Shown: one piece after another, positions 2,255 to 20,291 of the stretch
Position numbering within the stretch: the first letter of the stretch is position 1
How the letters are laid out: each line of letters begins with the position of its first letter
Origin: a virus
Strand: one strand, 5' to 3'
IMG/VR virus record: IMGVR_UViG_3300023223_000257
Coordinates: 1 to 20,291 of that record
Length of the DNA stretch: 20,291 nucleotides
Made by a program: the position numbers and the translations under genes
The notes under the pieces: generated by a model
The model's database searches: none
Told to the model about the DNA's origin: nothing
What the model saw: the letters and a program-made list of their open reading frames with translations, nothing else

Positions 2255-3694
2255 ATGAATGCCCCCGATAAATCCTCTTTGAAAAGCAAGCTTGCCACCC
2301 TCGAAGGCATTATTTCCCGTCCCGAATTGTTTCGCCAACTAGGCCAGCAGTACGACGGTGACAGGGATATGTATGTCACTTTAGGCTATAAGAAAGATTT
2401 GGTATATGACGATTTCTTTAGCCTCTATAAAAGGCAAGACATATGTAAGCGGATAATTGATGCCCCAGCAGATGCCACATGGCGCGGTGAGCCTATTATA
2501 GTAGACTTAGATGCTGATGAGGATGATAAGGATGATAAGGATGACGATGGCGTAACACTAGAATCTGAGTTTAATAGAAAGTTCTCTGAGATTGCCCGGG
2601 CCTTAAAGATATGGCATTACTTTACCCGAGCAGACAAGCTTGCTGGTGTAGGCCAATACTCAGTACTATTCCTTGGCTTTAATGACGCTAAAACCCAAAA
2701 TGATTTAGCTAAGGAGGTTAAGCGCGGGAATAGCCTTGAGCTTACCCATCTGAGGCCATTTAGTGAGGGTAATGCCGAGATAATGACATTTGATGATGAT
2801 GTTAATAGCCCACGTCACGGCCTCCCTGAAACCTACCAACTACAAACCTCGCTCACAGGTACTACCACGGCCACGGAATCTAATAAAACCATTGTCGTAC
2901 ATTGGACTAGGGTAATTCATGTAGCAGAGGATTTACTTGAGAGTGAAACCTTTGGTACGCCTCGCCTTGAGGCGGTATTTAACCGCATGTTCGACTTAGA
3001 AAAGACGGTAGGTGGTAATGCCGAAATGTTCTGGCGTGGCGCATTCCCCGGTTACAACTTTAAGCTTGATCCTGAGGCTGAGCTTGCTGATGATGAGATC
3101 ACCGATTTACAGGATCAAATTGATAACATGATTCATAAGATAAGCCGGTATATACGTACTCAGGGCGTAGATATACAAGAGCTTAAACAGGAGGTTGCCG
3201 ATCCCTCAAGCACCTTTGATGTTATTATCAAGCTAATTTCAGCTGCTACAGGCATACCTACAAGGATACTTACGGGCTCTGAACGCGGTGAGTTAGCGAG
3301 TAGTCAGGATGAGAGTAATTGGAATACACGTATAGATGAAAGGCGTAATGACTTTGCTGTACCAATTATTATCAGGCCATTTATAGAACGCCTTATCTTA
3401 TTCGGAATCCTGCCTGTCCGTGATTTCAATACTGTTTGGCCTGATCCATTGCCTCTTGATGCCGAAACAATTTCTGTAGTTAATAAAAATCAGACATCGG
3501 CCCTTGTTGAATACGCGGAAAGTATAGAGGCACAATTACTGATACCACCAATAATCTACCTTACGCGGTTCGCTAATATCGATGAGGATACTGCCTTACA
3601 GATTATCAAGGATAGAGAGGGTGATTTGGATGATGAGGATGATTTAGATTTTGATGATGATGAACCAGATGATATTGAACCAGAGGATGAATGA
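2255..3694 (+). CDS. Portal protein (DUF1073-type)
   Basis: Portal proteins form the dodecameric ring at the capsid vertex through which DNA enters and leaves. This 479-residue product has the layout of the DUF1073 portal family. An N-terminal region contains DMYVTLGYKKDL and YKRQDICKRIIDAPADATWR. The core contains GVGQYSVLFLGF, and the helical stem region contains TGIPTRILTGSERGELASSQDE. A typical segment NWNTRIDERRNDF follows. Two acidic inserts are notable: residues about 88-100 and a very acidic C-terminal tail from about 453 to the end. The start ATG has only a weak GGTG binding site. Portal normally follows large terminase, but here a promoter/terminator region precedes it and no terminase is present. 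The next gene overlaps its stop. Confidence 0.9.
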   Translation: MNAPDKSSLKSKLATLEGIISRPELFRQLGQQYDGDRDMYVTLGYKKDLVYDDFFSLYKRQDICKRIIDAPADATWRGEPIIVDLDADEDDKDDKDDDGVTLESEFNRKFSEIARALKIWHYFTRADKLAGVGQYSVLFLGFNDAKTQNDLAKEVKRGNSLELTHLRPFSEGNAEIMTFDDDVNSPRHGLPETYQLQTSLTGTTTATESNKTIVVHWTRVIHVAEDLLESETFGTPRLEAVFNRMFDLEKTVGGNAEMFWRGAFPGYNFKLDPEAELADDEITDLQDQIDNMIHKISRYIRTQGVDIQELKQEVADPSSTFDVIIKLISAATGIPTRILTGSERGELASSQDESNWNTRIDERRNDFAVPIIIRPFIERLILFGILPVRDFNTVWPDPLPLDAETISVVNKNQTSALVEYAESIEAQLLIPPIIYLTRFANIDEDTALQIIKDREGDLDDEDDLDFDDDEPDDIEPEDE

Positions 3695-3921
3695 TGGAAA
3701 AGCTTAAAAAAGTACATATTATTATATTAGTTATAGTTGCATTAGTATGCGGGGTATTCGCATATCTAGCTAAATCAGATTCATTGCAGGAGAAAGAGCA
3801 AGCGGCACCGGCTGTGGAAACTATTGCCGCCCCAGAGGAAGGTAAACCACCGGCTAAGTCGGAGGGGCTTACGCCGGATGGTGAGCCTACCCAGAAGATT
3901 GTTGAACCTCCCGCAGAATAA
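3691..3921 (+). CDS. Small membrane-anchored Pro/Glu-rich protein (76 aa)
   Basis: The ATG at 3691 overlaps the portal stop; a second ATG lies at 3694. A short basic N-terminus (KLKKVH) leads into one hydrophobic helix, about residues 9-26 (IIILVIVALVCGVFAYLA). The rest is a low-complexity extracytoplasmic-looking tail rich in Pro, Glu and Ala. It could be a single-pass membrane protein or, given a Cys at about residue 20, a poor lipoprotein candidate. An inner-membrane spanin subunit would have similar topology, but a coiled coil and a partner are lacking. The function is unknown. A terminator-like hairpin follows it. Confidence 0.55.
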   Translation: MMEKLKKVHIIILVIVALVCGVFAYLAKSDSLQEKEQAAPAVETIAAPEEGKPPAKSEGLTPDGEPTQKIVEPPAE

Positions 3922-3939
3922 CAATCCACAAGCATGGCT

Positions 3940-3968
3940 GTAGGTTTAACCAAAGCCTACGTTTTTTT
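3940..3968 (+). terminator. Intrinsic terminator or attenuator touching the next start codon
   Basis: An eight-pair stem (GTAGGTTT with AAGCCTAC, one G-U pair) and a 5-nt loop span 3940-3960. After a single G come seven T residues (3962-3968). The ATG of the minor head gene follows at 3971, only two bases after the T run, leaving no room for a ribosome binding site between them. It may act as partial terminator, attenuator or structured leader. Confidence 0.7.
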
Positions 3969-3970
3969 GT

Positions 3971-6634
3971 ATGAACGTAGTAAATTCACATAGAAGAATT
4001 TTACGTCGTGATCCCACACTAACTATTACAATCCGTAAACAGTGGGTTACCGAGGGTAACAAACGTATCAATACAATCAAGCGGTTTATCCGGGAAACCA
4101 TTGTCACTAACGATGCATTCGGATTAAAAGAACGCCCCCTGCTTTCATTCCTTGCCGCTGCTCCGGTAGGTGCATTTGATCAACCATCGGATGCAGAAAA
4201 ACTTGTTGCCTTTTCCCTATGGCTTAAGCAGCAATTCAATACCGAGTTTTTACAATTACGCGTGAACCCGTCTACCGGACAGATAATCCGTATCGATCCT
4301 AATTGGACACAGAAATATGTGGACAGGGCCTATCTCATGGGTGTTAAGAATGCTAATCGTCAATTAAAGAAAACGGGCATCGATCCAGCAGTTGAACCTG
4401 TTCCAGGCAGCCGCCCCCGTGTAACGCTTGCCGGGATATTAGCCATACCAATTCATCGGCAAGGTATTTCTGCTATGAGAGAACGTGTATTAAACGAATT
4501 AGACGGCATCGCCAATGCCACCCAGCAACAGGCTACAAGAGTTTTAGCCGATGGCTTAGCCCGTGGCGATACACCCGCACAGCTTACACGTTCTATAAAC
4601 GAGGTTATGGATAAGGTAGCCAAACAACGGGCAACGGCTCTGGCGTTAACAGAGACAGTAAGGGCCCATGCAGAGGCCCAATTAAACCAGTTTGAGGCAT
4701 TTGGCATTACGGAAGTGACTGCTATAGCGGAATTTACCACTCAAGGTGACGAATTTGTATGTCCTATCTGCCTCGCTCTTGAGGGCCGCTTGTTTCCCAT
4801 AAACGAGGCGCATGGAATTATACCTGTACATGTAAGATGTGTAGGGGGCGAGACAAGGGTAAATGCGGTTGATGCATCGAAAGCCATTAGAACCTATTAT
4901 ACTGGTGAATTACTAACCCTCGAACTTGAGGACAGGGTAATTGAATGCACGCCTAATCATATATTCTTAAGCCATCATGGATTCTTTAAGACCCAGGATT
5001 TTCGTGTTGGTGCCTCTTTATTGTGTCAAGCTTCGACGGATGGCCATACATATGCTACAAAGATAGAATCGTTTTTCGCTGAGGAAAGCCACGTTCATGC
5101 CTTACAGGGCAATCTCGATCTGCATGGTGATGGCCCTAATTGTAGTGGTTTATGGATGTCTTTTCTTAGGCAAGGAGACTATTCATCACACGATAATGAT
5201 AAATTCTTTAGAGAAATTAACGAGTCATTTCCATATGATAGCAGAGAGGATAAACCACGCAATATCGATGAGGTTCTGATAAATCAAGAGATAATCACCG
5301 ATGCCATGGACGGCCAGGGATTAGAGCTTAAAGAGATTAAGGCTATTAAGACTCGCCATGTCGAGAATTATCCTGTCTATGACATGGAAACAGATAGCTC
5401 TCTCTATCTTGCCGAGGGCATTGTATCAAGCAATTGTGCATGCTTCTGGAGCATTGTAGGTGTACAGGAGGTGCGAGATAGGGAACCTGTATCTGAAAAG
5501 AAATTCTTAACCCCGCCCAGTGATAGGTTCAGGGGTAAGGATGGTAAGGTTCGGCCGAGCCAGGACAAGACAGAGGCAGAGGTAGCCGACATCATAGGCC
5601 AGCCGTTACCACCACGGAATCTTGAACAGCAGCCTGTTATTGTGCCGATTATCCTTGAGGCTAAAGAGCCGTTACCTGCCTTTGACGGGCTAGACGGCGA
5701 ACCAGGAACCCCCGGCGTACCTGGAACAGGTATCCAACATATGGAAATCCTTAAAAGGGATTTATTGATTTACCTGACAAACGGCAGCGGTTATCGGTTT
5801 GAGCATTTCCTCGGACTGCCGGGTACAAGCATTATCAATGCTGAAATAAATGAGCACGGTGAATTAATACTATCCTATGATGACGATAAGCAAGACAATC
5901 TAGGACGTATACAGGGGCGTGACGGCATTTCTATGACGGATGCAACTCTTAAACAAGGTGAACTAATAATTGAAACCAGCGACGGCACTGAGCTTAATCT
6001 AGGCAATGTCATAGGTGATTCAGTAAAGGGTACACCGGGGATAAACGGAACGGATGGTATCGGGGTTTCTGATGTTGGAATAGTGGGTACCAGACTATTC
6101 ATGAGAATGAGTAATGACAACATCTTGGACTTGGGTGATGTAAAGGGCGAAAAGGGTGATCCAGGCCCAAGCATAGTAGGGCCCGCTCTATTAGATGTTA
6201 AATTAATGGAAAATAACAGTTTTACATTCTATCTTGATGATGGTACTGAGATACAGACTAACGAGCTTGAACTTAATCATATAGGCTTTGTTGAGGCAAT
6301 AGAGTTTGATCCGGTTCGCAATGCAATACGCTGGCGCGTCCGTGGAGTATGGAGTGACTTTATACCTCTAGGTACAAGCGGAGGAGGTGGGGGCGGTATA
6401 AGGACACTGACAAGCTCTGATGGTTCTGTAACGCTTGTGCCTACCAGCGGTACGGGCAGCACAGTGGATTTATCTGCGGGCGGCGGTGATCCAGAGGATC
6501 ACGGCTTTGATAGGTGCATTGATTTTGCTTTTATACTTAAAGAGGATTTTACCTATACAACTGATGGTTGGGAATTAAAAGCCGGTGGTAGTATTGAATT
6601 TACTTCTGGTTCACACATAACGATAGTAGGATAA
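3971..6634 (+). CDS. Minor head/head morphogenesis protein (SPP1 gp7-like) with intein and collagen-like C-terminal extension
   Basis: The 887-residue product has three parts. Residues 1-289 plus 489-500 form an SPP1 gp7-like (phage Mu F-like) head morphogenesis domain. It has RRILRRDPT at the start, a helical core (ATALALTETVRAHAEAQLNQ) and the metal-type motif C264-P-I-C267 ... H287 ... CxC. That CxC is split by an intein at residues 290-488; splicing would restore VHVR joined to CACFW. Residues about 571-768 carry short collagen-like Gly-X-Y runs (573-587, about 688-696, 726-734) alternating with beta modules of the pattern (G)ELxxxxxDGTELxLGxVxG. A six-glycine linker lies at 804-809. After splicing the protein would be about 688 residues. 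The gp7 domain probably sits at the portal vertex, and the extension looks like a head fibre or trimerising spike. There is no in-frame alternative start upstream; the start lies right behind a hairpin and T run and has no visible binding site. Confidence 0.85.
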   Translation: MNVVNSHRRILRRDPTLTITIRKQWVTEGNKRINTIKRFIRETIVTNDAFGLKERPLLSFLAAAPVGAFDQPSDAEKLVAFSLWLKQQFNTEFLQLRVNPSTGQIIRIDPNWTQKYVDRAYLMGVKNANRQLKKTGIDPAVEPVPGSRPRVTLAGILAIPIHRQGISAMRERVLNELDGIANATQQQATRVLADGLARGDTPAQLTRSINEVMDKVAKQRATALALTETVRAHAEAQLNQFEAFGITEVTAIAEFTTQGDEFVCPICLALEGRLFPINEAHGIIPVHVRCVGGETRVNAVDASKAIRTYYTGELLTLELEDRVIECTPNHIFLSHHGFFKTQDFRVGASLLCQASTDGHTYATKIESFFAEESHVHALQGNLDLHGDGPNCSGLWMSFLRQGDYSSHDNDKFFREINESFPYDSREDKPRNIDEVLINQEIITDAMDGQGLELKEIKAIKTRHVENYPVYDMETDSSLYLAEGIVSSNCACFWSIVGVQEVRDREPVSEKKFLTPPSDRFRGKDGKVRPSQDKTEAEVADIIGQPLPPRNLEQQPVIVPIILEAKEPLPAFDGLDGEPGTPGVPGTGIQHMEILKRDLLIYLTNGSGYRFEHFLGLPGTSIINAEINEHGELILSYDDDKQDNLGRIQGRDGISMTDATLKQGELIIETSDGTELNLGNVIGDSVKGTPGINGTDGIGVSDVGIVGTRLFMRMSNDNILDLGDVKGEKGDPGPSIVGPALLDVKLMENNSFTFYLDDGTEIQTNELELNHIGFVEAIEFDPVRNAIRWRVRGVWSDFIPLGTSGGGGGGIRTLTSSDGSVTLVPTSGTGSTVDLSAGGGDPEDHGFDRCIDFAFILKEDFTYTTDGWELKAGGSIEFTSGSHITIVG
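4838..5434 (+). mobile_element. Mini-intein (Hint domain), 199 residues, inside the minor head protein
   Basis: The first residue is C290, starting CVGGETRVNA (intein block A). Block B is T327-P-N-H330, with the TxxH pattern, followed by HGFFKTQDFRVGASLL. The C-terminal blocks F and G read VYDMETDSSLYLAEGIVSSN, ending in N488 with C489 as the first residue after the intein. Cys1, the TxxH histidine, the terminal Asn and Cys+1 are all present. The usual penultimate His is Ser487. The insert of about 70 residues between the splicing blocks, including L384-HGDG, has no recognisable LAGLIDADG or HNH endonuclease. It lies exactly within the CxC metal-binding motif of the host domain, the kind of conserved site inteins favour. 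Confidence 0.85.
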
Positions 6635-6637
6635 GAC

Positions 6638-7378
6638 ATGGCATCAGTATTCGAATTAGGATTAGTCGGAGCAGTACCAACACGTCCTGCTCTTGGTTCA
6701 TTCCATCTTTATGTATTGTCTACCGATAGCAACAGATACCTACAGACGAGTACAGCAGAAATAAACCTTGCTAATTTGGGGGATATGACGCAAGCGGTAT
6801 ATGATGCTGCCGGGGTTAGCGAGCAGCTTGTAGGCCTTACTGCATCCCAAGCACTCACAACTAAATCTGTCAACGGGGTAACACTTACTGATGCAGGCTC
6901 GGCTACTAATTTTCTGAATGAGGCTGGGGATTATGTATCTATCGGCGCAATCAATGATTTTTATCAGGCATACGATTCAGCCGGAGTAACAAATCCGAAT
7001 AGTGTTACGCCTGTAGCGATTCCATTTGCTACTACTGAACAGGGGCAGAGTTGGATTACAGATACAAGCGCCACACTAAAGACAATCAATACAACTGGTG
7101 TATATGCGATTTCCTTTGTAATCAATATAGAAAAAACAACCGCAAACTCAGCTACATTACAATTCGATTTATCGGTAAATGGTGTACTAACTGGATTCTT
7201 TGATGTATTCGGTGAGGTAACCGGCAACGATCATGCATCTTATCAAGGTGTTGGACGTGTGCGTTCGCTTACCGCTACTGATACTCTTGAGATAGAGGGG
7301 TTCAGAATTAAGGGAAATTCCAATACAATAACAACCATCGCAGATAATACGCGATTAACAATATTCAGGTTATCATAA
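6638..7378 (+). CDS. Virion protein with C1q/TNF-like C-terminal beta domain (246 aa)
   Basis: The N-terminal part (residues 1-100) resembles tail-fibre or decoration adaptors: SFHLYVLSTDSNRYLQTS, then an Ala/Thr-rich helix and a SVNGVTLTDAG turn. Residues about 125-246 read as a jelly roll of the C1q/TNF type, with VTPVAIPFATTEQG, the strand GVYAISFVINIEK, LQFDLSVNGVLTG and the closing NTRLTIFRLS. Such domains are common in phage structural proteins and form trimers. It directly follows the collagen-like gene, with GGATAAG just upstream of its ATG, and its stop overlaps the next ATG (TAATG). A virion surface role is inferred from fold and context; the exact location (head or tail) is not shown. 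Confidence 0.6.
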   Translation: MASVFELGLVGAVPTRPALGSFHLYVLSTDSNRYLQTSTAEINLANLGDMTQAVYDAAGVSEQLVGLTASQALTTKSVNGVTLTDAGSATNFLNEAGDYVSIGAINDFYQAYDSAGVTNPNSVTPVAIPFATTEQGQSWITDTSATLKTINTTGVYAISFVINIEKTTANSATLQFDLSVNGVLTGFFDVFGEVTGNDHASYQGVGRVRSLTATDTLEIEGFRIKGNSNTITTIADNTRLTIFRLS

Positions 7379-8004
7379 TGCCAGCATTCTTTCATTGTGT
7401 AGATATTGATGGGGTGAATATAGCACTTCAGGTGGACACCAGCGATCCGGTTACGCCTATTTCCCAGGCCGATTTTGTAACAGGAGATATCACAAATCCA
7501 TTAGTTGGTAATCAAAACGTATTCCTGTTCAAATACACGGGCACCGCCTCTAATGGTTCAACAGATGGCACCATGATAGCGGTGGATGATGAGGTAATCA
7601 GTTTCAAAGCGTTAATGCTGATGAATGCCGATACCGTCAAGCTAGACGATATCCCTGAGTCTGCTGCATTAGCATCTACAACAGATGCTACACCTACGGT
7701 TATTGGGGCATTACCAGTCAGGGAGGATGTATCATTACTGGTGACTGTAGCAATCCACGCGGCTCGTACCGATGCTTCTGAGGAAACGGCATATTGGGTT
7801 AGGAGATATACCTTTATCCGAATCACTACCGGAGCATTGGCCGTTGAAAGTTCGAAATTAATAGATAAAAATAATCCAGGTGGTATGAATGCAGTGCTTG
7901 TAGTTTCTGGTAATTATATACATGCTCAGGTAACTGGTTCGGCTGCCGAAACATGGAAATGGGCAATAGCCGAATTAAAAATAGATACAATGGAGCTTTC
8001 GTAA
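7378..8004 (+). CDS. Beta-rich phage virion protein (208 aa)
   Basis: The N-terminal half starts PAFFHCVDIDGVNIALQVDTS and is polar and beta-rich. Residues about 95-208 carry a pattern common in phage virion beta domains. It opens with (T)VIGALPVREDVSLLVTVAI, continues with a charged turn and AYWVRRYTFIRI, and ends NYIHAQVTGSAAETWKWAIA. This pattern usually sits at the C-terminus of tail or head decoration proteins. The start overlaps the previous stop, and the following ATG is two bases past its own stop. The domain is recognised from pattern memory only. The role is probably surface decoration or fibre. Confidence 0.55.
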   Translation: MPAFFHCVDIDGVNIALQVDTSDPVTPISQADFVTGDITNPLVGNQNVFLFKYTGTASNGSTDGTMIAVDDEVISFKALMLMNADTVKLDDIPESAALASTTDATPTVIGALPVREDVSLLVTVAIHAARTDASEETAYWVRRYTFIRITTGALAVESSKLIDKNNPGGMNAVLVVSGNYIHAQVTGSAAETWKWAIAELKIDTMELS

Positions 8005-8005
8005 C

Positions 8006-8521
8006 ATGGCTGAGTTAGACAGAACACAGCTTGGCGTAATGGATGTAGTCTCTGTTGATGCCGATCCAACGTCAACATCCGTAGATGCTCTTACTGGTAG
8101 CCTGATTACTTTTAATGGTGAATATTATTGTAAGATAGATGATGGGGATACAACCAACAGCGTCAAAATAAGCGTAATGAATGTAGCCGGGGCTTATACA
8201 AAGCAGCAAAACATAGTACAGGCTACTCTTTCTGATGGCGCTAATATTGCGTGGGATCTTGATACAGATCAGAGCAGCATCGTAACGCTTGCAGGCAACA
8301 GGACACTGGATAACCCGACGAACCAGAAAGCCGGTGGAACTTATGCGCTGATTGTCAAACAGGATGCTACCGGGGGTAGAACACTTGCGTATGGAACCGT
8401 GTACAAATTTCCAGGTGGCACCGCGCCAACATTGAGTACAGCTGCGAATGCCATTGATTTGCTAACGTTCATCTCAGACGGAACTGATATGTATGGAGTT
8501 GCAACCCTTGCATTCAGCTGA
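8006..8521 (+). CDS. Phage virion beta protein (171 aa)
   Basis: Residues about 75-171 match a widespread phage fibre/decoration domain. Its signatures are LAGNRTLDNPTNQKAGGTY, then ALIVKQDATGGRTLAYG, then KFPGGTAPTLSTAANAID and LLTFISDGTDMYGVA. This beta domain occurs at the ends of many tail-fibre and collar proteins. The first 70 residues contain VSVDADPTSTSVDALTG and look like an attachment segment. The stop TGA at 8519-8521 shares its A with the next ATG, so translation is coupled. Its family is more secure than its place in the virion. Confidence 0.65.
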   Translation: MAELDRTQLGVMDVVSVDADPTSTSVDALTGSLITFNGEYYCKIDDGDTTNSVKISVMNVAGAYTKQQNIVQATLSDGANIAWDLDTDQSSIVTLAGNRTLDNPTNQKAGGTYALIVKQDATGGRTLAYGTVYKFPGGTAPTLSTAANAIDLLTFISDGTDMYGVATLAFS

Positions 8522-9447
8522 TGATATTACTACCTATAAGTCTATTTAATGGTGGTGTAGCTGTTGATACTACGTTTGGCTCTACATGGAAAACAGACAA
8601 TGCAGGCGTCTCAAATGACGATCAGATTTCCTTACCATTGGTATCTACAGGGACATACAGTTTCACAGTTGATTGGGGTGATGGTAATGAGGATACGATT
8701 ACAACTTGGGATGATGTAGCAAAAACCCACACCTATGCGTCCACCGGCACCTATACCGTAGTAATTACTGGACAATGCGAGGGTTGGAAATTCAATGGTG
8801 GTGGCGATAAGACAAAGATATTAACAATCGATAATTGGGGAACCGACTTAAAGCTAAATACTACAGCCTCATTTAGCGGGTGTTCTAATCTTGTAATAAC
8901 TGCCGATGATGTTCTCGCTCTTAATTCTGTTGATGCTGGTAGTGCTTTATTTTATCAATGTTCAAGTCTTACTACAATTCCAGGCATAGAAAATTGGACA
9001 GGTTGGGGTAGTATCAATACTTTATTGTGGGGATTCCGTGCTTGTACAAATCTAAACGAACCGGGCATAGGCAGTATTGATACGAGCGGATGTGCTGTTT
9101 TCACATCTATATTCCGAGATTCCAGCAGTTTTAACCAGCCGTTGACTTGGGATACAGGCCTAAATACAAGCTTTTCGCATGCGTTTAGAAATGCGACATC
9201 ATTTGATCAGGATATAGGGGCCCTTGATGTAACCGCGCTTACTGCCGCCGCAAGCATGTTTACTGGTGTAACTCTTTCGACTGCTAACTATGATGCGCTA
9301 TTGACAGGTTGGGATGCCCAGGCGGTTCTTGATAGTGTTTCATTTAATGGCGGTTCATCACTTTATTCAGCAGGGGCACCAGCCACAGCGCGTGCAGCAT
9401 TAATAGCGGATCACAGCTGGAGCATCGTGGATGGAGGGGCTGCATGA
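8521..9447 (+). CDS. PKD plus BspA-like leucine-rich-repeat surface protein (308 aa)
   Basis: Residues about 40-82 form a PKD-type Ig-like domain with the hallmark D51-WGDG and the closing HTYASTGTYTVVITG. Residues about 100-285 are BspA-like/DUF285 repeats. They show FSGCSNLVI, LFYQCSSLTTIPGIENWTGW, GFRACTNLNEPGIGSIDTS and FRDSSSFNQPLTWDTG, followed by FRNATSFDQDIGALDVT and the ending ALLTGWDAQ. In bacteria this domain pair occurs in secreted adhesins. No signal peptide is convincing (MILLPISLFNGGVA is short and lacks basic residues), which fits a virion component. Located among other virion beta proteins, it may bind host or mucus glycans or proteins. Architecture is confident; the role is inference. 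Confidence 0.75.
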   Translation: MILLPISLFNGGVAVDTTFGSTWKTDNAGVSNDDQISLPLVSTGTYSFTVDWGDGNEDTITTWDDVAKTHTYASTGTYTVVITGQCEGWKFNGGGDKTKILTIDNWGTDLKLNTTASFSGCSNLVITADDVLALNSVDAGSALFYQCSSLTTIPGIENWTGWGSINTLLWGFRACTNLNEPGIGSIDTSGCAVFTSIFRDSSSFNQPLTWDTGLNTSFSHAFRNATSFDQDIGALDVTALTAAASMFTGVTLSTANYDALLTGWDAQAVLDSVSFNGGSSLYSAGAPATARAALIADHSWSIVDGGAA

Positions 9448-12666: not shown

Positions 12667-13698
12667 ATGGATTATATTGATGGTAATAAGGTTCACGGAA
12701 ATGTTGCGCAAGGCTTAGCCGACGTAGACTTTGATGTGAGCCAGTTACGTCCTTTCGTTGGCAACGATGGCCGTCCGTATATTAACCAGGGCAAAATTGC
12801 TGTCCCGGCTATTAATGCGACATTGCGAAAGGATGAATGGCTTGAACTCGATGATGCAATCATTGATGAGGCCGAGGAAAGGTTAGTTGGTGTTCAGGAT
12901 TTGTTGGACGCTGGATTAGTTAAGAATCTCGCTGACGGGCTGGGTACAACCAGTTTGGAATGGGAGAACGCTGACGATTTCAGCCCCGCCGAAATCTCTA
13001 TGGACGCCGTAACCCAAAGTAACGCGGATCGCCCCAATTATGAGTTGGAAAGTGTACCGTTGCCGATTATCCACAAGGACTTCAACTTTAACGTGCGCCA
13101 GCTACGTGCAAGCCGTAAACGGGGACAAACCCTCGATACGGATAGTGCTCGTCTAGCGTCACGCCAGGTTGCGGAAACAGTGGAAACGTTGTTGTTCAGT
13201 GGTACCCCAACGTACACCTTTGCGGGTGGTACGATATTTGGTTATACCACTGCAACAGATCGGAACGTGGTAACACTTACCGAGAACTGGGATGACGCTG
13301 GTAAGACTGGTGAGGAAATCTTAACCGATGTTCTCAACATGAAACAGGCGTCTATTGATGCGTTCCATGAAGGCCCTTGGTGGTTGTACATTCCTACAGC
13401 CTACGACACTGCTCTTGATGAGGATTTCAAGGCGGAAAGCTCCAAGACAATCCGGCAGCGGTTGCTTGAAGTAGCAGGGCTGGATAGCATTAGGGTTGCT
13501 GGTAAGTTGGCGGTTAACACCGTTGTACTTGTTCAGCATACCATGGATGTTGTGCGCATGGTTAATGGCATGCCACTGACAACGGTTCAGTGGGAAGGTA
13601 ATGGCGGGCTCCGTCAGAACTTCAAAATCATGACTATCATGATTCCAAATATTCGCTCTACCCAGGGCAATAGAAGCGGAGTTACCGTCCTGTCATAG
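12667..13698 (+). CDS. Major capsid protein (encapsulin-like HK97 fold)
   Basis: This 343-residue protein has a very strong ribosome binding site (AGGAAGGAG just before ATCATG), fitting the most abundant virion protein. It matches the DUF6260/encapsulin-like branch of HK97-fold capsid proteins. Signatures are DVSQLRPFVGNDGRPYIN near the start and the E-loop-like LESVPLPIIHKDFNFNVRQ. They continue RASRKRGQTLDTDSARLASRQVAE, TLLFSG with GGTIFGYTT (P-domain and A-domain boundary), ESSKTIRQRLLEV, and PLTTVQWEGNGG near the C-terminus. There is no obvious N-terminal delta domain, consistent with a separate scaffold. It follows the decoration gene and precedes a small head-associated gene. Codon use looks more conserved and GC-richer than in neighbours, as expected for high expression. 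Confidence 0.88.
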   Translation: MDYIDGNKVHGNVAQGLADVDFDVSQLRPFVGNDGRPYINQGKIAVPAINATLRKDEWLELDDAIIDEAEERLVGVQDLLDAGLVKNLADGLGTTSLEWENADDFSPAEISMDAVTQSNADRPNYELESVPLPIIHKDFNFNVRQLRASRKRGQTLDTDSARLASRQVAETVETLLFSGTPTYTFAGGTIFGYTTATDRNVVTLTENWDDAGKTGEEILTDVLNMKQASIDAFHEGPWWLYIPTAYDTALDEDFKAESSKTIRQRLLEVAGLDSIRVAGKLAVNTVVLVQHTMDVVRMVNGMPLTTVQWEGNGGLRQNFKIMTIMIPNIRSTQGNRSGVTVLS

Positions 13699-13783: not shown

Positions 13784-14344
13784 ATGGAAAAAAGAACATT
13801 TCGCTTATTGAGCGGCACCTATACCTATTTTGAAGATGATGAAAAGATTACCATTACTAAAGGCCAGAAGGTTGATAGTGATGAAGATTTACACCTACGT
13901 TATGTAAACAAGTTTCAATTACTTGATCCAAACGCAGTCTCTATTACCGACGATCCCGATACCATTAACCTTGAGCCTATGCATAAAGGCCATGGCAAAT
14001 ACGTTGTTATTAATAAAGTCACAGGCAAGGAAATTAATGAGGGCGGCTATCTTACTAAAGATCAGGCTTACGAATGGTGCGGCCTAGAAGTCCCTGCATC
14101 CAAGCCTAAGGCTCCTCACACTCCTAAAGAGCCAGCTACGCTTGAAATCGGCAATATTGTCAGGCATAAATGCGGCCAAGGCATAGACGATGGCTTTGGT
14201 ATAATTACTGAAATTAATGATGATATACTGACGCTAAAGAATGATAGCGATGATCCTGAATGGACTATTGATAAAACTGATGTTGTCGGGGTTGTCGATG
14301 AACTGCCAAATGAACCCAAAATTGAAGAAGACGAACTTGTCTGA
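13784..14344 (+). CDS. Small head-associated protein with SH3-like C-terminal segment (186 aa)
   Basis: It starts with AAAGGA upstream of the ATG. The N-terminal part (FRLLSGTYTYFEDDEKITIT, then KGQKVDSDEDL and VNKFQLL) has the 'G-x-Y-x(n)-KG-x-V-x-S-x-x-DL-x(n)-NKF' layout often seen in the short gene after phage major capsid genes. The middle has VINKVTGKEINEGGYLTKDQA. The C-terminal third (IGNIVRHKCGQ, then DDGFGIITEINDDILTLK) looks like a KOW/SH3 barrel. It may be a capsid accessory protein. The next gene begins inside its last codons. Confidence 0.55.
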   Translation: MEKRTFRLLSGTYTYFEDDEKITITKGQKVDSDEDLHLRYVNKFQLLDPNAVSITDDPDTINLEPMHKGHGKYVVINKVTGKEINEGGYLTKDQAYEWCGLEVPASKPKAPHTPKEPATLEIGNIVRHKCGQGIDDGFGIITEINDDILTLKNDSDDPEWTIDKTDVVGVVDELPNEPKIEEDELV

Positions 14345-14996
14345 AAAATGGTGGGTTGCTCCTAGGATTTGGGAAGGGGGTACGGCCTACATCATTGGCG
14401 GTGGCCCATCATTAAAAGACTTCGACTTTTCGCCTATCCACGATAAGCATACAATCGGTTGTAACGATGCGTATGCTCTTGGACCGTGGGTAGACATCTG
14501 TTATTTCGGCGATATCGCTTGGTTTGATATGCATTGGGTACGCTGGGTTTATTACAACAAAAAACAACGTATCCCCGGACTACTGCAATATGGTGGGCTC
14601 ATAGCTTGCTGTAACGAGAAATTCCTTAACAAAGATGGTAGTCAAAAGTACAAGCGTGTGAAGGTACTTAAGCGATATCATGAGGGTATTATGACTCTAC
14701 CTGGGTGTATTGCATGGAACGCTAACACCGGGGCAAGTGCAATTAACTTGGCTATCATCCTTGGCTGTAAGCGGGTGGTGCTCTTGGGCTTTGATATGAA
14801 GCTAAACGAAAAAGGTGACGGTAACTACCATATCAACCTAAAAGACAAGCCAAAGAAAGAATCGTTTGCGAGGTTCATGAAATACATGCCCAAGGTTAAG
14901 GCTGGTGCAGATTTACTTGGGGTAGAGATAATCCAGACTACCAAAGATTCTGCGTTAGATATTTTCCCATATAAACCATTAGCGGAGGTAGTCTAA
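14310..14996 (+). CDS. DUF115/MptE-like Rossmann protein, probable glycan-related enzyme
   Basis: The motifs TAYIIGGGPSL, TIGCNDAYALG, YFGD.AW, then TGASAINLAIILGCKRVVLLG and FDMKLN are those of DUF115/MptE-like proteins. These share a Rossmann fold with sialyltransferase-like and pterin pyrophosphokinase enzymes and commonly occur in phage head-gene regions and in surface glycosylation (Maf-type) loci. The conserved part begins at about 14340. Two starts are plausible: ATG at 14310, or TTG at 14337 with GAAGAAG upstream and overlapping the preceding stop. The frame stays open up to an ATG at 14241, but that would overlap the previous gene by about 100 nt. It is the first gene of the accessory block. 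No substrate can be deduced. Confidence 0.7.
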   Translation: MNPKLKKTNLSEKWWVAPRIWEGGTAYIIGGGPSLKDFDFSPIHDKHTIGCNDAYALGPWVDICYFGDIAWFDMHWVRWVYYNKKQRIPGLLQYGGLIACCNEKFLNKDGSQKYKRVKVLKRYHEGIMTLPGCIAWNANTGASAINLAIILGCKRVVLLGFDMKLNEKGDGNYHINLKDKPKKESFARFMKYMPKVKAGADLLGVEIIQTTKDSALDIFPYKPLAEVV

Positions 14997-14998
14997 TC

Positions 14999-15364
14999 AT
15001 GGCTTACGGATATGAATTAGTTTTAGATTTACATAATTGCAAGGCATTCCCCCTAGATAGAGATGATTTAACAATGTTTCTTATTGAGCTTTGCAGAGAA
15101 ATTGATATGAAGCGTGAGGATTTGCACTTTTGGGATTACCATGATGATCCCGAGGGCTATGAGGCTGCACCGGCACACCTTAAAGGCGCGTCCTGTACTC
15201 AATTCATAAAGACAAGTACTATTGTTATCCATACCCTTGATGATATGCAGGAGGCGTTCATTAACGTCTTTTCATGTAAGGAATTTGATGCCGATATAGA
15301 TAAATGGATAGCAGCATATTTCGGTGCGGATATAAGGCGTTCAACTATGATCGAGAGGGGTTAA
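14999..15364 (+). CDS. SpeD-like pyruvoyl decarboxylase homologue (121 aa)
   Basis: The fold pattern is that of bacterial class 1B S-adenosylmethionine decarboxylase (SpeD): GYELVLDLHNC at the start, then KGASCTQFIKTSTIVIHTL, then INVFSCKEFD, and YFGADIRRSTMIERG at the end. Compared with Thermotoga maritima SpeD (Ser55, Glu62-Ser63, His68, Cys83), the equivalents here are Ser65, Thr72-Ser73, His78 and Cys93, with identical spacing. So the pyruvoyl-forming Ser, both processing residues and the proton-donor Cys are kept, but the Glu of the self-cleavage bond is Thr. SpeD makes decarboxylated AdoMet for spermidine synthesis, and some homologues act on ornithine or arginine instead. No other polyamine gene is present. 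It lies two bases after the previous stop and one base before the DUF3326 gene. Confidence 0.78.
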   Translation: MAYGYELVLDLHNCKAFPLDRDDLTMFLIELCREIDMKREDLHFWDYHDDPEGYEAAPAHLKGASCTQFIKTSTIVIHTLDDMQEAFINVFSCKEFDADIDKWIAAYFGADIRRSTMIERG

Positions 15365-15365
15365 C

Positions 15366-16361
15366 ATGAATGTAGTAATGATAATTCCTACGGGCTTGGG
15401 TTGTGCGATTGGCGGCCATTCCGGGGATGCCACTCCAGCAGCAAGACTATTAGGTGCGGCTTGCGATAATCTTATATTGCATCCTAACGTAGTGAACGCC
15501 TCAGATATAAATGAGATGCCTATGAATGCGTGGTACGTAGAGGGCAGTATCTTAAATAGGTTCCTTGCCGGTGATTGTTTATTATCTCAACCAAAGTCGA
15601 ATAAAATTTTAGCTATATCAAATGACTTACGATATTCAATTATCAATGGCGTAAATTCTACACGTTCTACATTGGGCATAGACATAACCCTTATGAAACT
15701 GAATACCCCTATTGAGATGTTTGCTGAGTTTAACGCAGATGGCACAGCGGGCGGCTATCATTTAGGTTCTGATGAGGCATTTGGACAAATTAATAAATCG
15801 GGAGAGGTGTTTGATGCCATAGCGATACTTACGCCTATTACCATGAATATAGATGAGGCGCATACTTATTTCAAAGAGGGCGGGGTTAATCCTTATGGCG
15901 CGGTTGAGGCTATGCTATCGCGGGTATTCGCCGAATACTTTTGTATGCCTGTCGCCCATGCACCTATTGAATTAGAAGAGAGGGCGGATGTACGTCTTAA
16001 TGATGTAATTCCAGATGCCCGTATATCATCTGAGGTTATTGGTGGACACTCACATAGTGTTTTTAAGGGCTTATCTAAAGCACCAAGGCCAATACAAGAT
16101 ACAGGACAGTATAATATGAGTAGCAAAAATATTGACTGTATGGTAAGCCCTATGTGTTACGGAAGGCCACATATGCATTGTGAAAGCCAAGGTATCCCGA
16201 TTATTTATGTTCGGGATAATTATACGCATAATCCGTGGGTACCGGAGCCAGACAATATTATTGTTGCAAATTACTACGAGGCTGCGGGTAAGATTTTAGC
16301 TATGAAAGCGGGTGTGGAATATCTTGCTCCTCCCGAACTAAAAATAATACAGGGAGCCTAA
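15366..16361 (+). CDS. DUF3326 family protein (331 aa)
   Basis: The N-terminus reads MIIPTGLGCAIGGHSGDATP, then AACDNLILHPNVVNASDINE and AWYVEGSILNRFLAG. This is the hallmark of DUF3326, a family of unknown function known mainly from cyanobacteria, algae and plants. Further matching elements are the RSTLGIDI segment, EGGVNPYGAVEAMLSR, the CMPVAHAP motif and the late GLSKAPRPI. The Gly-rich PTGxG..IGGxxGD start suggests nucleotide or cofactor binding, but this is inference. GAGGGG lies before its ATG. It sits between the SpeD-like gene and a small Cys protein in one tight transcript. Its presence in a phage head region is unusual. Confidence 0.75.
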   Translation: MNVVMIIPTGLGCAIGGHSGDATPAARLLGAACDNLILHPNVVNASDINEMPMNAWYVEGSILNRFLAGDCLLSQPKSNKILAISNDLRYSIINGVNSTRSTLGIDITLMKLNTPIEMFAEFNADGTAGGYHLGSDEAFGQINKSGEVFDAIAILTPITMNIDEAHTYFKEGGVNPYGAVEAMLSRVFAEYFCMPVAHAPIELEERADVRLNDVIPDARISSEVIGGHSHSVFKGLSKAPRPIQDTGQYNMSSKNIDCMVSPMCYGRPHMHCESQGIPIIYVRDNYTHNPWVPEPDNIIVANYYEAAGKILAMKAGVEYLAPPELKIIQGA

Positions 16362-16363
16362 TC

Positions 16364-16702
16364 ATGGCTAAGAAAAAGATAATACCTAAGATATATGGTG
16401 TCTATCAGCATCAGGGTAGGGAGTGGGTTGGTAAGGCATATCGGTTTACTAAAAAGTATAATATTGTCTATAATGGATTTAGGTTTATTAAAATCCCGGT
16501 TAAGCAGGTTATTCAGTGGTACGAGAGATGTCCACACTCACTTAAACCAGTGTCTTATTCTGAATATTGTGACAGGGTTAAACTCACGAGTTATGATGAG
16601 AAAATAATGCCTGATACTGCCATAATCGTCTATCAATGTGAATGCTGTAAAAGGATGGTATCGAGAACCAAGTGGTTGCTTAGTCACGGGAGTATAAAAT
16701 AA
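16364..16702 (+). CDS. Small basic hypothetical protein with a CxxCxC-type cluster (112 aa)
   Basis: GGGAG precedes the ATG. The product is Lys/Arg/Tyr-rich. After a basic, beta-like first half (IIPKIYGVYQHQGREWVG) comes an isolated Cys pair region (ERCPHS, SEYCDR), and near the C-terminus YQCECCKRM. The cysteines could bind zinc. The stop TAA shares its last A with the next ATG. The family is not recognised. Its conserved place between two enzymes suggests a helper role, without direct evidence. Confidence 0.5.
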   Translation: MAKKKIIPKIYGVYQHQGREWVGKAYRFTKKYNIVYNGFRFIKIPVKQVIQWYERCPHSLKPVSYSEYCDRVKLTSYDEKIMPDTAIIVYQCECCKRMVSRTKWLLSHGSIK

Positions 16703-19140
16703 TGCTATTAGAACAATGCTTATGTGGTAGTGAGAAGAGTACGAGAATAGAGCGTATGGGGCTGGACATCGATCAGTGCCTAACATGTGGGCTCTTGCGC
16801 CAGAGCGTGAACCTTTCTGAAATCGGGTATGCAGCATACTACCAAAAGGATTATCACAACGGCAAATACTATCATACCTTTGAACAGGATACCAAGGTAG
16901 CCAATTTACGGCTTGATGAGTATAAGCTAATTAAGGGTTCTGTTATCCTTGATGTGGGTTGTGGTAATGGGGCCTTTGTCATTGAGGCACGTAAGCAAGG
17001 TATAGATGCCTATGGCGTTGAGGTAGGGGAGGGGGCAAGTAAAACTGAATATACCTATTACGGGGAGTTAGCAAGCCATTGCTTTCCTACGGATCACTTT
17101 GACACCGTAACCGTGCATGATGTGTTAGAGCATTTAATTGATCCCATAACGTTTCTACAGGATGTGAGGCGCATATTAAAGCAGGGTGGTAAGCTGATAA
17201 TTGACTTGCCTAATTTTTATGTGCCTGAGGGTGATCACCATTGGAAAGAAATTGAGCACCTATGGTTTTTGAATACAGAGGAGATGATAACCATCTTACA
17301 GGGTGCAGGTTTCCAGATGGGGGATATCAAGCAACCCATTCCAAGTAAATTAGTGTTCTACTGCGTCGCACCAATTGAGGACAGAACCACCATTGTATTA
17401 CCTCCTGGTATTGGTGATAGCTGGTGGAGCCTTGTTAAGCTGCGGAGTTTCTGTGAAAAGAACCTTTTAGGCATACCAGATTGCTATTTAATGTCTGATA
17501 ACGGCAAAAAGGATAGGGCTTTACCCTTTATCCAGAGAGCACCGTTCATCCATGGGGCAGGCTTTAAGAATTACGAGAATAAGCGTCAAGACTTAATATG
17601 GCGTGAGGCTTATCTAGCCTTGGGGCCCTGTAATACACCGTTAAAAGCTCCGCGTACCATTTTCAGCAATGTAGCTGGCTGTGATTACTTTATGGCCTAT
17701 AACGGCATATTCAGGATTGGCCTTGGGCTTGATGATGTGGATACGGGCTATGCGAATGATTGGCATTTCCCTTTATTCAAATCATTAGAAGAAAAGTGGT
17801 TTGGCGAGCGGATGAGAGAGGAGATAGGGGAGTATATCATAGCTTATTTCATCGATCACGGTATGTACGGTAAATATTGGCTTAAAGAATTTCCGATTGA
17901 CGATATACGCGAAACCATGAAACTGTTGCATCAGGCTACGGGTAAGAAAATTGTTGTGATTGGTGCGGATTGGGATAAAGGCCCGTTCATTGATAAGCTG
18001 GTAGAGAACTTTGATTTCGTGGTTAATATGGTTGGTGATACGCCCTTACACGAGGCCCTTGGGCTTATCCAGTACTCAAGTGGGATGATAGGCTTTCCAA
18101 GCGGCATTACGTTCATGGGAGCCATGTACAAAAAGCCTGTTCTCTGTTTGTGGAATGATTACTTTGTTAAACAGTTTTGGGCAAAAGCGTGCCCGCCTGA
18201 GTCGATGAACAAATGGTATACCGTGCTCGGTACTAAGCATGCATACCCTGAATTGGTAAAGAACGCCTTTCTAGCGTTAAAGGACTACAAACCTATGAAA
18301 CATGACAAGCCAAAGAAAAGTGTCTCAGAACCGAAAAGAATGGCGAAAAAGACGGTAGCTGTGCCAAAGAAGCGAAAGCCTCGAAGCGATAAGGGTAAGA
18401 AACGGGGGAAGGTTGAGGTGATTGAACCTGACATAAGCGAAACCGTTATTGAGGATGATATAGCGGAGGCTGTTATACCTGAAAGGCCACCTGTTTTAGA
18501 TATACCGCCTGTGACGGTTGCCTGTGTGCTTAAATCAGGGGGTGATTTTACTGCTGATGATGTTGAGAAACTACGTAGAGGTGTAGCCCGTAATACCACC
18601 TGTGATTATAATTTCGTATGTCTTTCGGATATAGACGTACCCTGTGAGCGTATTGAATTAAAGCATAGGCTTGATGGCTGGTGGAGCAAGGTAGAGTTAT
18701 TTAGAAAGAACATATTTGATACCAGACGCATAATATACTTTGATTTGGATACGATATTTATGGATAACATAGATGCCTTATTCCAGACGGTTCACACATT
18801 CACCATGCTAGGAGCGTTTAACATTAGACGCAATCCATTCGCATCTGGCGTTATGGCATGGGAAGGGGATTGGCATTTAATCCATCGTGCGTTTATGGAT
18901 CGCAAGCAAGAGATAATGCAGAACAGAAATAATACTGATCAGTTACATATCCACCAAGTATTGCGTGAAGAGTATGGAATACAGCCTCGAAAAGTGCAGA
19001 GTATTTTGAATGTATATAGTTTCAAAAGGCATTGTAATGCGGATACCGGGCCACCTAAGGGAGCACAAATTGTCTGTTTTCATGGCAATCCGCGGCCATC
19101 CGAGGTAGAGTATCTTTGGGTAAAGGAGAACTGGAAATGA
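16702..19140 (+). CDS. Three-enzyme fusion: SAM methyltransferase, GT9-like and GT-A glycosyltransferase (812 aa)
   Basis: Residues 1-35 carry a zinc-knuckle-like C6-x-C8 ... C26-x2-C29, as in sugar methyltransferases. Residues about 75-215 are a class I SAM methyltransferase: motif I ILDVGCGNGAF at 82-92, then VHDVLEHL and LKQGGKLIIDLPNF. Residues 228 to about 530 resemble GT9/heptosyltransferase-like GT-B enzymes: TIVLPPGIGDSWW, KIVVIGADWD, LIQYSSGMIGFPSGITFMG and KPVLCLWND. A Lys/Arg-rich linker covers about 531-602. Residues 604-812 are a GT-A glycosyltransferase of GT8-like type: FVCLSDIDV, GWWSKVELF, IIYFDLDTIF with the DxD at 681-683, and a late CFHGNPRPSE. The enzyme would build and methylate a glycan. 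No frameshift is visible. Its start shares a base with the preceding stop, so it is a true in-frame fusion as assembled. Donor and acceptor sugars cannot be read from sequence. Confidence 0.82.
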   Translation: MLLEQCLCGSEKSTRIERMGLDIDQCLTCGLLRQSVNLSEIGYAAYYQKDYHNGKYYHTFEQDTKVANLRLDEYKLIKGSVILDVGCGNGAFVIEARKQGIDAYGVEVGEGASKTEYTYYGELASHCFPTDHFDTVTVHDVLEHLIDPITFLQDVRRILKQGGKLIIDLPNFYVPEGDHHWKEIEHLWFLNTEEMITILQGAGFQMGDIKQPIPSKLVFYCVAPIEDRTTIVLPPGIGDSWWSLVKLRSFCEKNLLGIPDCYLMSDNGKKDRALPFIQRAPFIHGAGFKNYENKRQDLIWREAYLALGPCNTPLKAPRTIFSNVAGCDYFMAYNGIFRIGLGLDDVDTGYANDWHFPLFKSLEEKWFGERMREEIGEYIIAYFIDHGMYGKYWLKEFPIDDIRETMKLLHQATGKKIVVIGADWDKGPFIDKLVENFDFVVNMVGDTPLHEALGLIQYSSGMIGFPSGITFMGAMYKKPVLCLWNDYFVKQFWAKACPPESMNKWYTVLGTKHAYPELVKNAFLALKDYKPMKHDKPKKSVSEPKRMAKKTVAVPKKRKPRSDKGKKRGKVEVIEPDISETVIEDDIAEAVIPERPPVLDIPPVTVACVLKSGGDFTADDVEKLRRGVARNTTCDYNFVCLSDIDVPCERIELKHRLDGWWSKVELFRKNIFDTRRIIYFDLDTIFMDNIDALFQTVHTFTMLGAFNIRRNPFASGVMAWEGDWHLIHRAFMDRKQEIMQNRNNTDQLHIHQVLREEYGIQPRKVQSILNVYSFKRHCNADTGPPKGAQIVCFHGNPRPSEVEYLWVKENWK

Positions 19141-19430
19141 ATGAAGTTACTGAAAATATAAAATCTATTAGGACAACAGTAAAGATAGAAGATGGATATA
19201 TCCGGCTCTTTGCTGATTGCGATGAGGATATTAAGGGTGCCACTCTCATGATAAATAACCATCCAGTGCCTCAGTTCATACCTCATAGTTCTAAAACGGC
19301 TGTCATGTCTCGAGTTTTAATATCTGAGCAAGATGATTATACGCAGGGCATAAGCTTAACAGTCGAAAATGCTAGGGCCATGGTAGATAAACTAAATAAG
19401 GCGATAGACGGATTATCGGAAAACCTATGA
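19137..19430 (+). CDS. Hypothetical protein (97 aa)
   Basis: The ATG at 19137 is chosen because AAGGAG lies just upstream (19123-19128); an in-frame TTG at 19116 lacks such a site. The start overlaps the last codons of the fusion gene. The product is mixed alpha/beta: TTVKIEDGYIRLFADCDED in the first half, VPQFIPHS in the middle, and a helical end (VENARAMVDKLNKAIDGL). No motif is recognised. The small size and coupling to both enzymes suggest an accessory factor of the block. Confidence 0.55.
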   Translation: MNEVTENIKSIRTTVKIEDGYIRLFADCDEDIKGATLMINNHPVPQFIPHSSKTAVMSRVLISEQDDYTQGISLTVENARAMVDKLNKAIDGLSENL

Positions 19431-20101
19431 GTGAAATGTCAGATAAAATTTTATTGGTGACTGGGTGTGCAAGATCGGGTACCTCAATGACTGCCGGGAT
19501 AATAGATATCTGCGGGGCCTTTGGCGGTAATACTGCCCCGCCTAATCCCAATAATAAAAAGGGGATGTTTGAGAACAGGCGCATAGTTAATGAGATTACA
19601 AAGCCTTACTTAAGTGCTATGGGTGTTGATCCTATGGGCCAGAACCCGCTGCCGGATATTAATAAGCTTATTCCCTTTGATTCGCTACGCAGTAAAGTAG
19701 AAAGCGTGTTCAAGCATGACGGCTACCAGGATGGGCCATGGTATTATAAGGGTGCTAAGATGTGCCTTATTTGGCCGATATTTAAGGCTGCATTCCCAAA
19801 TGCTAAGTGGATAATTGTCAGGCGTGATGATGCGGCTATAGTTAATTCATGCATGCGAACAGGCTTTATGAGGAAACACGAAACTGCGGCTGGTTGGCAA
19901 AGCTGGGTAGATGTTCATAAGCAGAGGTTCGTGGAAATGCATACGGGCGGCTTAGCTGTGCGCGAGGTGTGGCCGTCACGATTTATTGCCGGTGACTATG
20001 ACGAGATTAAAGACGCCATTAAATGGTTGGGCTTAAGCTGGCATGATGACAAAGTAAAGAAATTTGTTGATCCGAAACTATATACAGCGGGAGCAAAATA
20101 A
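19427..20101 (+). CDS. P-loop sulfotransferase (224 aa)
   Basis: The N-terminus has LVTGCARSGTSMT, the 5'-phosphosulfate-binding loop of PAPS-dependent sulfotransferases (residues 13-20). Residues 128-144 (WIIVRRDDAAIVNSCMR) form the 3'-phosphate-binding segment, with Arg132/Arg133 and Ser141 in the usual order. A helix after the P-loop and KKGMFENRRIVNE fit bacterial and phage sulfotransferases that act on carbohydrates or proteins. It overlaps the previous stop (ATGA) and the next ATG (TAATG). With the adjacent methyl- and glycosyltransferases it suggests a sulfated glycan product. The alternative, a generic P-loop kinase, is less likely because there is no DxD or lid motif. Confidence 0.82.
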   Translation: MSEMSDKILLVTGCARSGTSMTAGIIDICGAFGGNTAPPNPNNKKGMFENRRIVNEITKPYLSAMGVDPMGQNPLPDINKLIPFDSLRSKVESVFKHDGYQDGPWYYKGAKMCLIWPIFKAAFPNAKWIIVRRDDAAIVNSCMRTGFMRKHETAAGWQSWVDVHKQRFVEMHTGGLAVREVWPSRFIAGDYDEIKDAIKWLGLSWHDDKVKKFVDPKLYTAGAK

Positions 20102-20291
20102 TGGCTATTGATTCAAGCTGCCCTATCACTGAACAGGATGTAGCCGATATAGCGGGTATTACCCTTGATAGTGCTGATAACCTGGACCCGTTTATTAATG
20201 CGGCATGCGCTCTGTTCGATGCTAAAATAGGTACATTAATCGGTGAGGGCACGCTAAAAGATTCTATTCTCTCATATCTAGCTGCTCACTG
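20101..20291 (+). CDS. Head-tail adaptor (DUF4054-like), truncated by the window edge
   Basis: The start ATG shares its A with the sulfotransferase stop (TAATG). The visible 63 residues read ITEQDVADIAG, then LDPFINAACALFDAKIG, then LKDSILSYLAAH. This matches the start of DUF4054/gp6-like head-tail connectors, in which a helix pair precedes a conserved (R/S)YLAAH. Such proteins attach below the portal ring. Its presence shows that the head-gene order resumes after the accessory block. The 3' end is outside the window. Confidence 0.6.
   Translation, partial: MAIDSSCPITEQDVADIAGITLDSADNLDPFINAACALFDAKIGTLIGEGTLKDSILSYLAAH

Follow-up and report, generated by a model that had tools for sequence, protein, structure and literature searches.

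A putative virion-glycan and sulfate island with an embedded SpeD-DUF3326 cassette in the head operon of an uncultivated phage

Related systems

Glycosylation of phage virions is already established and is, to our knowledge, known from few cases. In the mycobacteriophages (Freeman et al. 2023, as cited in PMC12619734), capsid and tail-tube proteins of tailed phages carry glycans that are credited to phage glycosyltransferases; the description in PMC12619734 mentions no sulfotransferase, no GT42-fold enzyme, no methyltransferase-GT9-GT-A fusion and no amine cassette. Blocks of DUF115, glycosyltransferase or methyltransferase genes also occupy a similar part of the genome in two isolates. Tetraselmis viridis virus S20 has DUF115/'sialyltransferase', glycosyltransferase and/or methyltransferase genes between its capsid and head-closure genes, and in Pseudomonas phage PAJU2 such sugar-enzyme genes lie between the head-closure and tail-terminator genes, but neither has an annotated fusion, sulfotransferase, SpeD or DUF3326.

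Phage SpeD is likewise known. Phage homologues with proven activity are ornithine or arginine decarboxylases or S-adenosylmethionine decarboxylases (AdoMetDC) (PMC9992855). In bacteria, PspA-polyamine operons make up the third group of PMC11237479, which cites Li et al. 2019.

We analysed a window that is a complete IMG/VR virus record of 20,291 bp. The author of an earlier note on this DNA knew of no described system with its combination of glycan, sulfate and polyamine-type genes. Our literature search, which covered few subscription papers, returned no account of a sulfated island in the interval from capsid to neck genes, nor of a decarboxylase-DUF3326 partnership, so that the statement holds for the sulfation and for the SpeD-DUF3326 pairing; it goes too far for the sugar enzymes, given the similar blocks of S20 and PAJU2 and the known glycosylation of mycobacteriophages.

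General features of the locus

Seven co-directional ORFs fill positions 14310-20101 between the capsid genes and the next gene of the head-completion region, with intergenic distances of only 2, 1, 2, -1, -4 and -4 nt. The earlier note's account of seven tightly coupled genes that split the capsid genes from a downstream head gene is thus confirmed in ORFs, strand and gaps. Portal, MuF, protease/scaffold, decoration and major capsid genes lie 5' of the block. The genes are as follows.

12667..13698, +, major capsid protein (MCP), flanking gene and left anchor; phrog_771 (E 4e-26) and phrog_264
13784..14344, +, small post-MCP head-region gene, flanking; homologue in the same place in L007/L008 and L012
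14310..14996, +, DUF115-like / GT42-fold glycosyltransferase, first island gene; phrog_4603 (E 1.6e-29)
14999..15364, +, SpeD-like pyruvoyl decarboxylase; PF02675 (E 3e-11)
15366..16361, +, DUF3326; PF11805 (E 3.9e-59)
16364..16702, +, 112-aa Cys-containing protein, island cargo without a family match of weight
16702..19140, +, methyltransferase/GT9/GT-A fusion; Methyltransf_23 (E 9e-18), GT9 (E 9e-4), phrog_1962 (E 4e-31)
19137..19430, +, 97-aa protein in the gap between fusion and sulfotransferase
19427..20101, +, PAPS-type sulfotransferase; Sulfotransfer_3 (E 2e-5)
20101..20289, +, next head-region gene and right anchor, running off the window; weak matches to function-unknown phage families

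The 3' end of the small post-MCP gene overlaps the start of the DUF115 ORF, and the sulfotransferase gene overlaps the right anchor by 1 nt. The latter had been called a head-tail adaptor; its position agrees with this and makes it probably a head-completion gene, but its matches are all to families of unknown function. Promoter- and terminator-like sites in the block show no excess over chance.

Other genes of the window were also annotated. The MuF-like head protein (3971-6634; PF04233, TIGR01641), which continues into collagen-like repeats, is probably interrupted by an intein, to judge from a weak, sub-cut-off TIGR01445 match near aa 287-333 and the splice-like ends CVGGETRV and SSNC. The head-region genes at 6638-9447 have BclA-C-terminal-like, tail-fibre-like and DUF285/PKD features and could possibly encode capsid decoration fibres. 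Upstream of the portal gene, a Band 7/SPFH domain protein (PF01145, E 9e-8) is encoded at 136-723; in bacteria, some polyamine-PspA operons likewise include SPFH genes.

The putative glycan and sulfate island

A scan of viral contigs with the 812-aa fusion retrieved 51 contigs, including 44 loci with both the methyltransferase and the GT9 parts. These counts take in fragments and near-duplicate contigs, so the independent cases are fewer. A sulfotransferase lies downstream of the fusion in 37 of the 44 loci, as the immediate next gene in 25, and the order MCP, DUF115, fusion is kept in 19 of the 20 loci with a capsid gene in view. DUF115, fusion and sulfotransferase are therefore one conserved module in fixed order after the MCP in uncultivated phage contigs. 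The earlier note had proposed a search for co-occurrence in other phages and had named its absence from relatives as evidence against the proposal; the three genes were found together, in order, in many contigs.

The genes between these core members vary. In L007, the nearest relative, the MCP gene is followed by the small gene, DUF115, fusion and sulfotransferase with no further genes between them. Most relatives have sugar enzymes in the slot that separates DUF115 from the fusion; these include a split transketolase, a zinc alcohol dehydrogenase, an SDR, a TPP enzyme, an HldE-like heptose kinase and (extra) sulfotransferases. The gap between fusion and sulfotransferase holds the 97-aa protein in the window and an APS kinase in some relatives. 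APS kinase makes PAPS, the sulfate donor. It is encoded in 6 of 20 island records, with a full-length copy in L007. The window, itself a fragment, encodes neither an APS kinase nor a donor-sugar pathway, and host donors may therefore be needed. The 97-aa protein has no relatives in the sets searched, nor has the 112-aa Cys protein, for which the fetched loci were included.

Brevundimonas phage MaInes and Halorubrum phage Hardycor1 have related capsid proteins (the window MCP compares with the Brevundimonas phage MCP at 38%) and lack the island; their MCP gene is followed directly by small downstream or neck genes. The island is thus a recurrent insertion into the head operon. A chance pile-up of auxiliary genes that share no function, in the stretch from capsid to neck, would account for the variable cargo and for the two genes without relatives. 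It is very improbable, given a core order fixed over dozens of contigs, repeated use of the same slot and sulfotransferase motifs conserved in 36-37 of 37 relatives.

The fusion comprises an N-terminal Cys-rich motif and SAM methyltransferase (aa ~1-215), a GT9/heptosyltransferase-like region (aa ~226-530) followed by a Lys-rich linker, and a GT-A glycosyltransferase (aa ~605-811) matching phrog_1962. Methyltransferase motif I is present in 39 of 44 fusions and a DxD motif in 34 of 35 GT-A parts. In L009 the fusion is split into two genes of 514 and 233 aa, which suggests that its parts work together. L184 and L185 encode a 1267-aa version, ~450 residues longer. The GT-A part is homologous (28% identity) to PmgQ of phage P1 (AF234172.1, 81449-82111), which is labelled as having a putative morphogenetic function; PmgQ and HdmD of phage P7 may be virion glycosyltransferases.

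The sulfotransferase contains the P-loop CARSGTS and the 3' motif VRRDDAAIVNSC. Its 5'-PSB / PAPS-loop motif is kept in 36 of 37 relatives and its 3'-PB motif in all 37, and the protein compares with that of L007 at 55%. It misses both curated Pfam cut-offs (25.6 against 27 bits and 22.3 against 22.8). The GT9 part of the fusion is also below its cut-off, as is the DUF115 protein against MptE-like/DUF115 (PF01973; E 1e-4, 22 bits against 34.6). All three are conserved across dozens of relatives, and the family assignments made earlier for the block were right despite these scores, with one refinement.

This refinement concerns the DUF115 protein, whose match to phrog_4603 is to a family named 'alpha-2,3-sialyltransferase'. 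In a Foldseek search with its AlphaFold2 model (pLDDT 91.7), the five top PDB matches are sialyltransferases, led by CstII (1ro8, with cytidine-nucleotide analogues; E 9.6e-5, prob 1.00, TM 0.49). The model thus assigns the protein to the GT42 sialyltransferase fold, with the difference that identity to CstII is only 16% at a TM of about 0.5. A His after the GFD motif is present in 25 of 30 DUF115 relatives.

Probable target of the proposed modification

We consider it somewhat better than evenly probable that the locus is a virion-glycan island, expressed late, into which an amine-pathway cassette is embedded. Judging from its predicted fold, the DUF115 enzyme would probably use a CMP-activated acid sugar to start or cap a glycan. 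Within the fusion, the GT9 and GT-A domains would lengthen this glycan and the methyltransferase domain would methylate it, and the sulfotransferase would transfer sulfate to it from PAPS. Because the enzymes look soluble and cytoplasmic and are translationally coupled between capsid and head genes, the likeliest acceptor would be a protein of the capsid or neck that is assembled in the cytoplasm. What the analysis shows is the gene content with its conservation and order, the catalytic motifs, the predicted fold of the DUF115 protein and the association of the SpeD-DUF3326 pair; we infer the acceptor and the donor sugars, and likewise the identity and use of the amine discussed below.

The earlier suggestion of a late modification of the virion or of the cell surface fits enzymes embedded in head genes and left the two targets undivided. 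In the second case the glycan enzymes would modify LPS or capsule of the host late in infection, with the head operon as a route to late expression, for example to keep progeny off lysed debris or to exclude other phages. GT9 enzymes and GT42/CstII sialyltransferases commonly act on the lipooligosaccharide (core), so that the fold match of the DUF115 protein speaks for such a target, as does the HldE-like heptose kinase within some islands. Against this, phages with unrelated capsid lineages keep the placement between MCP and head-completion region, a scan of island genes brought up neither a flippase nor an enzyme that initiates synthesis on a lipid carrier, and a late change of the surface would leave little time for effect. 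We therefore hold a cell-surface target to be doubtful and favour decoration of the virion, which agrees with soluble-looking enzymes, coupling to head genes and use of the same site in different phages.

The SpeD protein

By its PF02675 match and the presence of the pyruvoyl-forming residues Ser73, His78 and Cys93 (T. maritima S63/H68/C83), the window protein is assigned to the SpeD family, class 1b. It would decarboxylate a substrate resembling an amino acid, by means of a pyruvoyl group that it forms itself. It resembles the neofunctionalised SpeD proteins of uncultured phages (PMC9992855, PMC10407285) in its class, in its Ser/His/Cys residues and in the absence of the AdoMetDC Pro: a conserved Pro after the His motif marks true AdoMetDC (PMC10407285), and the window protein has Asp at this position. 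Nor does it reach the cut-off of NCBIfam SAM_DCase_Bsu (21.6 against 75.65 bits). The ornithine decarboxylases (ODC) named SpeDC are distinguished by four diagnostic residues, Gln, Thr, Phe and Tyr (PMC10407285). Gln and Thr are present in the window protein, and Phe and Tyr are absent if they correspond to the columns in HTVC201P. Its subfamily keeps the ODC Gln/Thr and differs in probably not having the Phe/Tyr. The subfamily also has N, S or T after the pyruvoyl Ser, where the reference sequences have His, and it is paired with DUF3326, which is absent from the text of PMC10407285.

The protein could alternatively be a true AdoMetDC that feeds spermidine-type aminopropylation together with a host SpeE. 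It keeps the catalytic Ser, His and Cys; the SpeD of phiN3, a member of the ODC clade, has proven AdoMetDC activity (PMC9992855), so that clade does not fix the substrate of the window protein; and the L186 island has a canonical-type SpeD, between MCP and DUF115. Two points make this appear improbable: the diagnostic Pro is missing (PMC10407285), and the decarboxylases that fill the SpeD slot elsewhere, of NspC-like and PSD type, do not belong to the SAM enzymes. A spermidine-synthase domain is moreover found in only 1 of 26 records, several of which are fragments. The spermidine pathway was set aside as the default reading because spermidine synthase is almost absent.

DUF3326 and its decarboxylase partner

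The window DUF3326 matches PF11805 with 200.8 bits (cut-off 25) over positions 2-333 of 337. It sits on a long branch, yet keeps all 48 of the 48 columns that are at least 95% conserved in 79 relatives, which argues against decay. Its AF2 model is of high confidence (pLDDT 90.4, pTM 0.88). A fold search of PDB and BFVD gave no match at E<=1e-3, so the fold points to no particular reaction or enzyme class; weak fold matches to carbamoyltransferase and D-LDH (TM about 0.2) were discarded. A sequence search of PDB gave chance matches only. No DUF3326 was found in the isolates of the phage collection.

We collected 63 viral DUF3326 loci and 212 cellular stretches, 80 of which were kept. SpeD directly adjoins DUF3326 in 40/63 viral and 33/75 cellular loci and lies within 4 kb in 6 further viral loci. 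In the reverse direction, a SpeD scan, which rests on an alignment query since the window SpeD alone matched nothing, yielded 53 viral loci with DUF3326 adjacent in 29, within 4 kb in 5 and not nearby in 19. The divergences of the two proteins are correlated (Mantel r 0.50, 73 pairs, 0/2000 permutations).

Where SpeD is missing, other decarboxylases take its place. A PLP decarboxylase stands beside the long cellular form of DUF3326 in 18 loci; its best match is the carboxynorspermidine decarboxylase NspC (273 bits, under the NspC cut-off). In viruses, the slot holds a PSD-type decarboxylase in 5 loci and a relative of ornithine cyclodeaminase/mu-crystallin in 3. Altogether, the long cellular form has a decarboxylase next door in 45 of 51 loci, and the short form has none beside it in 18 of 24. 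This replacement of SpeD by non-homologous decarboxylases is the main argument, drawn from gene neighbourhoods, that DUF3326 probably belongs to an amine pathway, in which it would either make the acid for decarboxylation or use the amine. Individual loci show these arrangements: a PSD-family gene (PF02666) directly adjoins a long DUF3326 form in L143, L145, L146, L147 and relatives, and an ornithine cyclodeaminase/mu-crystallin family gene lies immediately upstream of DUF3326 at L151:4588-5517. Signs of decay of one partner were also seen, as a shortened DUF3326 next to an intact SpeD (L153:5956-6189) and, in a head operon with DUF115, as a truncated SpeD (L263:8992-9186).

Cellular operons add a glutathionylspermidine-synthase-like ATP-grasp ligase (GSP_synth), DUF1190, DUF350, PspA and DUF2170. 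The bacterial SpeD-DUF3326 and NspC-like-DUF3326 loci thus share GSP_synth, DUF1190, DUF350 and PspA with the PspA-polyamine operons of PMC11237479. Among the open-access papers found, just two name DUF3326, and PMC11237479 is neither of them. The phage copies differ in lacking these partners: GSP_synth is found in 0/26 viral records, and DUF350, DUF1190 and PspA were not found near viral DUF3326.

Relationship between the two modules

The block, taken as one in the earlier note, consists of two modules, a glycan/sulfate island whose genes are indeed conserved as a set and a separable SpeD-DUF3326 cassette in its variable slot. The pair is widespread among bacteria and phages, and as a rule no glycan genes accompany it, so the connection with the glycan module may be one of position. 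One other record, IMGVR_UViG_3300024429_000127 (L125/L251), has the gene order and slot of the window: protease, decoration, MCP, a 109-aa gene, DUF115, SpeD, DUF3326 and alcohol dehydrogenase, and further 3' some other genes, half of a transketolase and a gene resembling a sulfotransferase; the contig ends short of the expected position of the fusion. A single acquisition of the pair by the window and L125 is compatible with the AU test (p 0.68), as are separate ones, and the two DUF3326 genes may or may not go back to one event. SpeD also occurs elsewhere in the head operons of the DUF115-bearing L221, where it follows the portal gene, and L234.

These neighbourhoods bear on a reading in which SpeD-DUF3326 is unrelated to the glycan and makes polyamine-like cations that neutralise packaged DNA, its site in the head operon matching the time of packaging. 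The pair adjoins portal or terminase without glycan genes in seven loci (L003, L006, L095, L096, L101, L105 and L116), so that a packaging role also fits; the position of SpeD after the portal in L221 and the ornithine, arginine or AdoMet decarboxylase activities proven for phage homologues (PMC9992855) point the same way. Some pairs, however, lie near non-head genes (a tail fibre in L107, GroEL in L121), the partners in bacterial operons (ATP-grasp ligase, DUF1190, DUF350, PspA) suggest a conjugated or membrane-related amine, and the window and L125 place the pair inside the glycan slot. We give this reading a substantial chance that stays below even. In L121 the GroEL gene (3546-5162) is upstream of SpeD-DUF3326, with one small ORF in between.

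In the virion-glycan island that we favour, the amine would be used late in infection, either as a counter-ion of packaged DNA or attached to the glycan as a substituent. A more specific version, which we put forward tentatively and regard as rather unlikely as a whole, is that DUF3326 and its exchangeable decarboxylase are an undescribed amine-biosynthesis pair of bacteria, archaea and phages, whose product in this phage would be attached to or packed with a virion bearing a sulfated, methylated glycan. By analogy, and with the same reserve, DUF3326 might then stand to the SpeD-type, NspC-like and PSD-type enzymes as carboxynorspermidine dehydrogenase stands to NspC.

Significance

If a conserved head-gene island with sulfation, methylation and possibly an acidic sugar does act on the virion, virion glycosylation would be common and chemically rich, and such sugar decoration would have effects on virion stability, adsorption and recognition. 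The recurrent association of DUF3326 with three decarboxylase families that are not homologous would place this uncharacterised family in a pathway and supply a class of substrates that can be tested directly, in bacteria as well as in phages.
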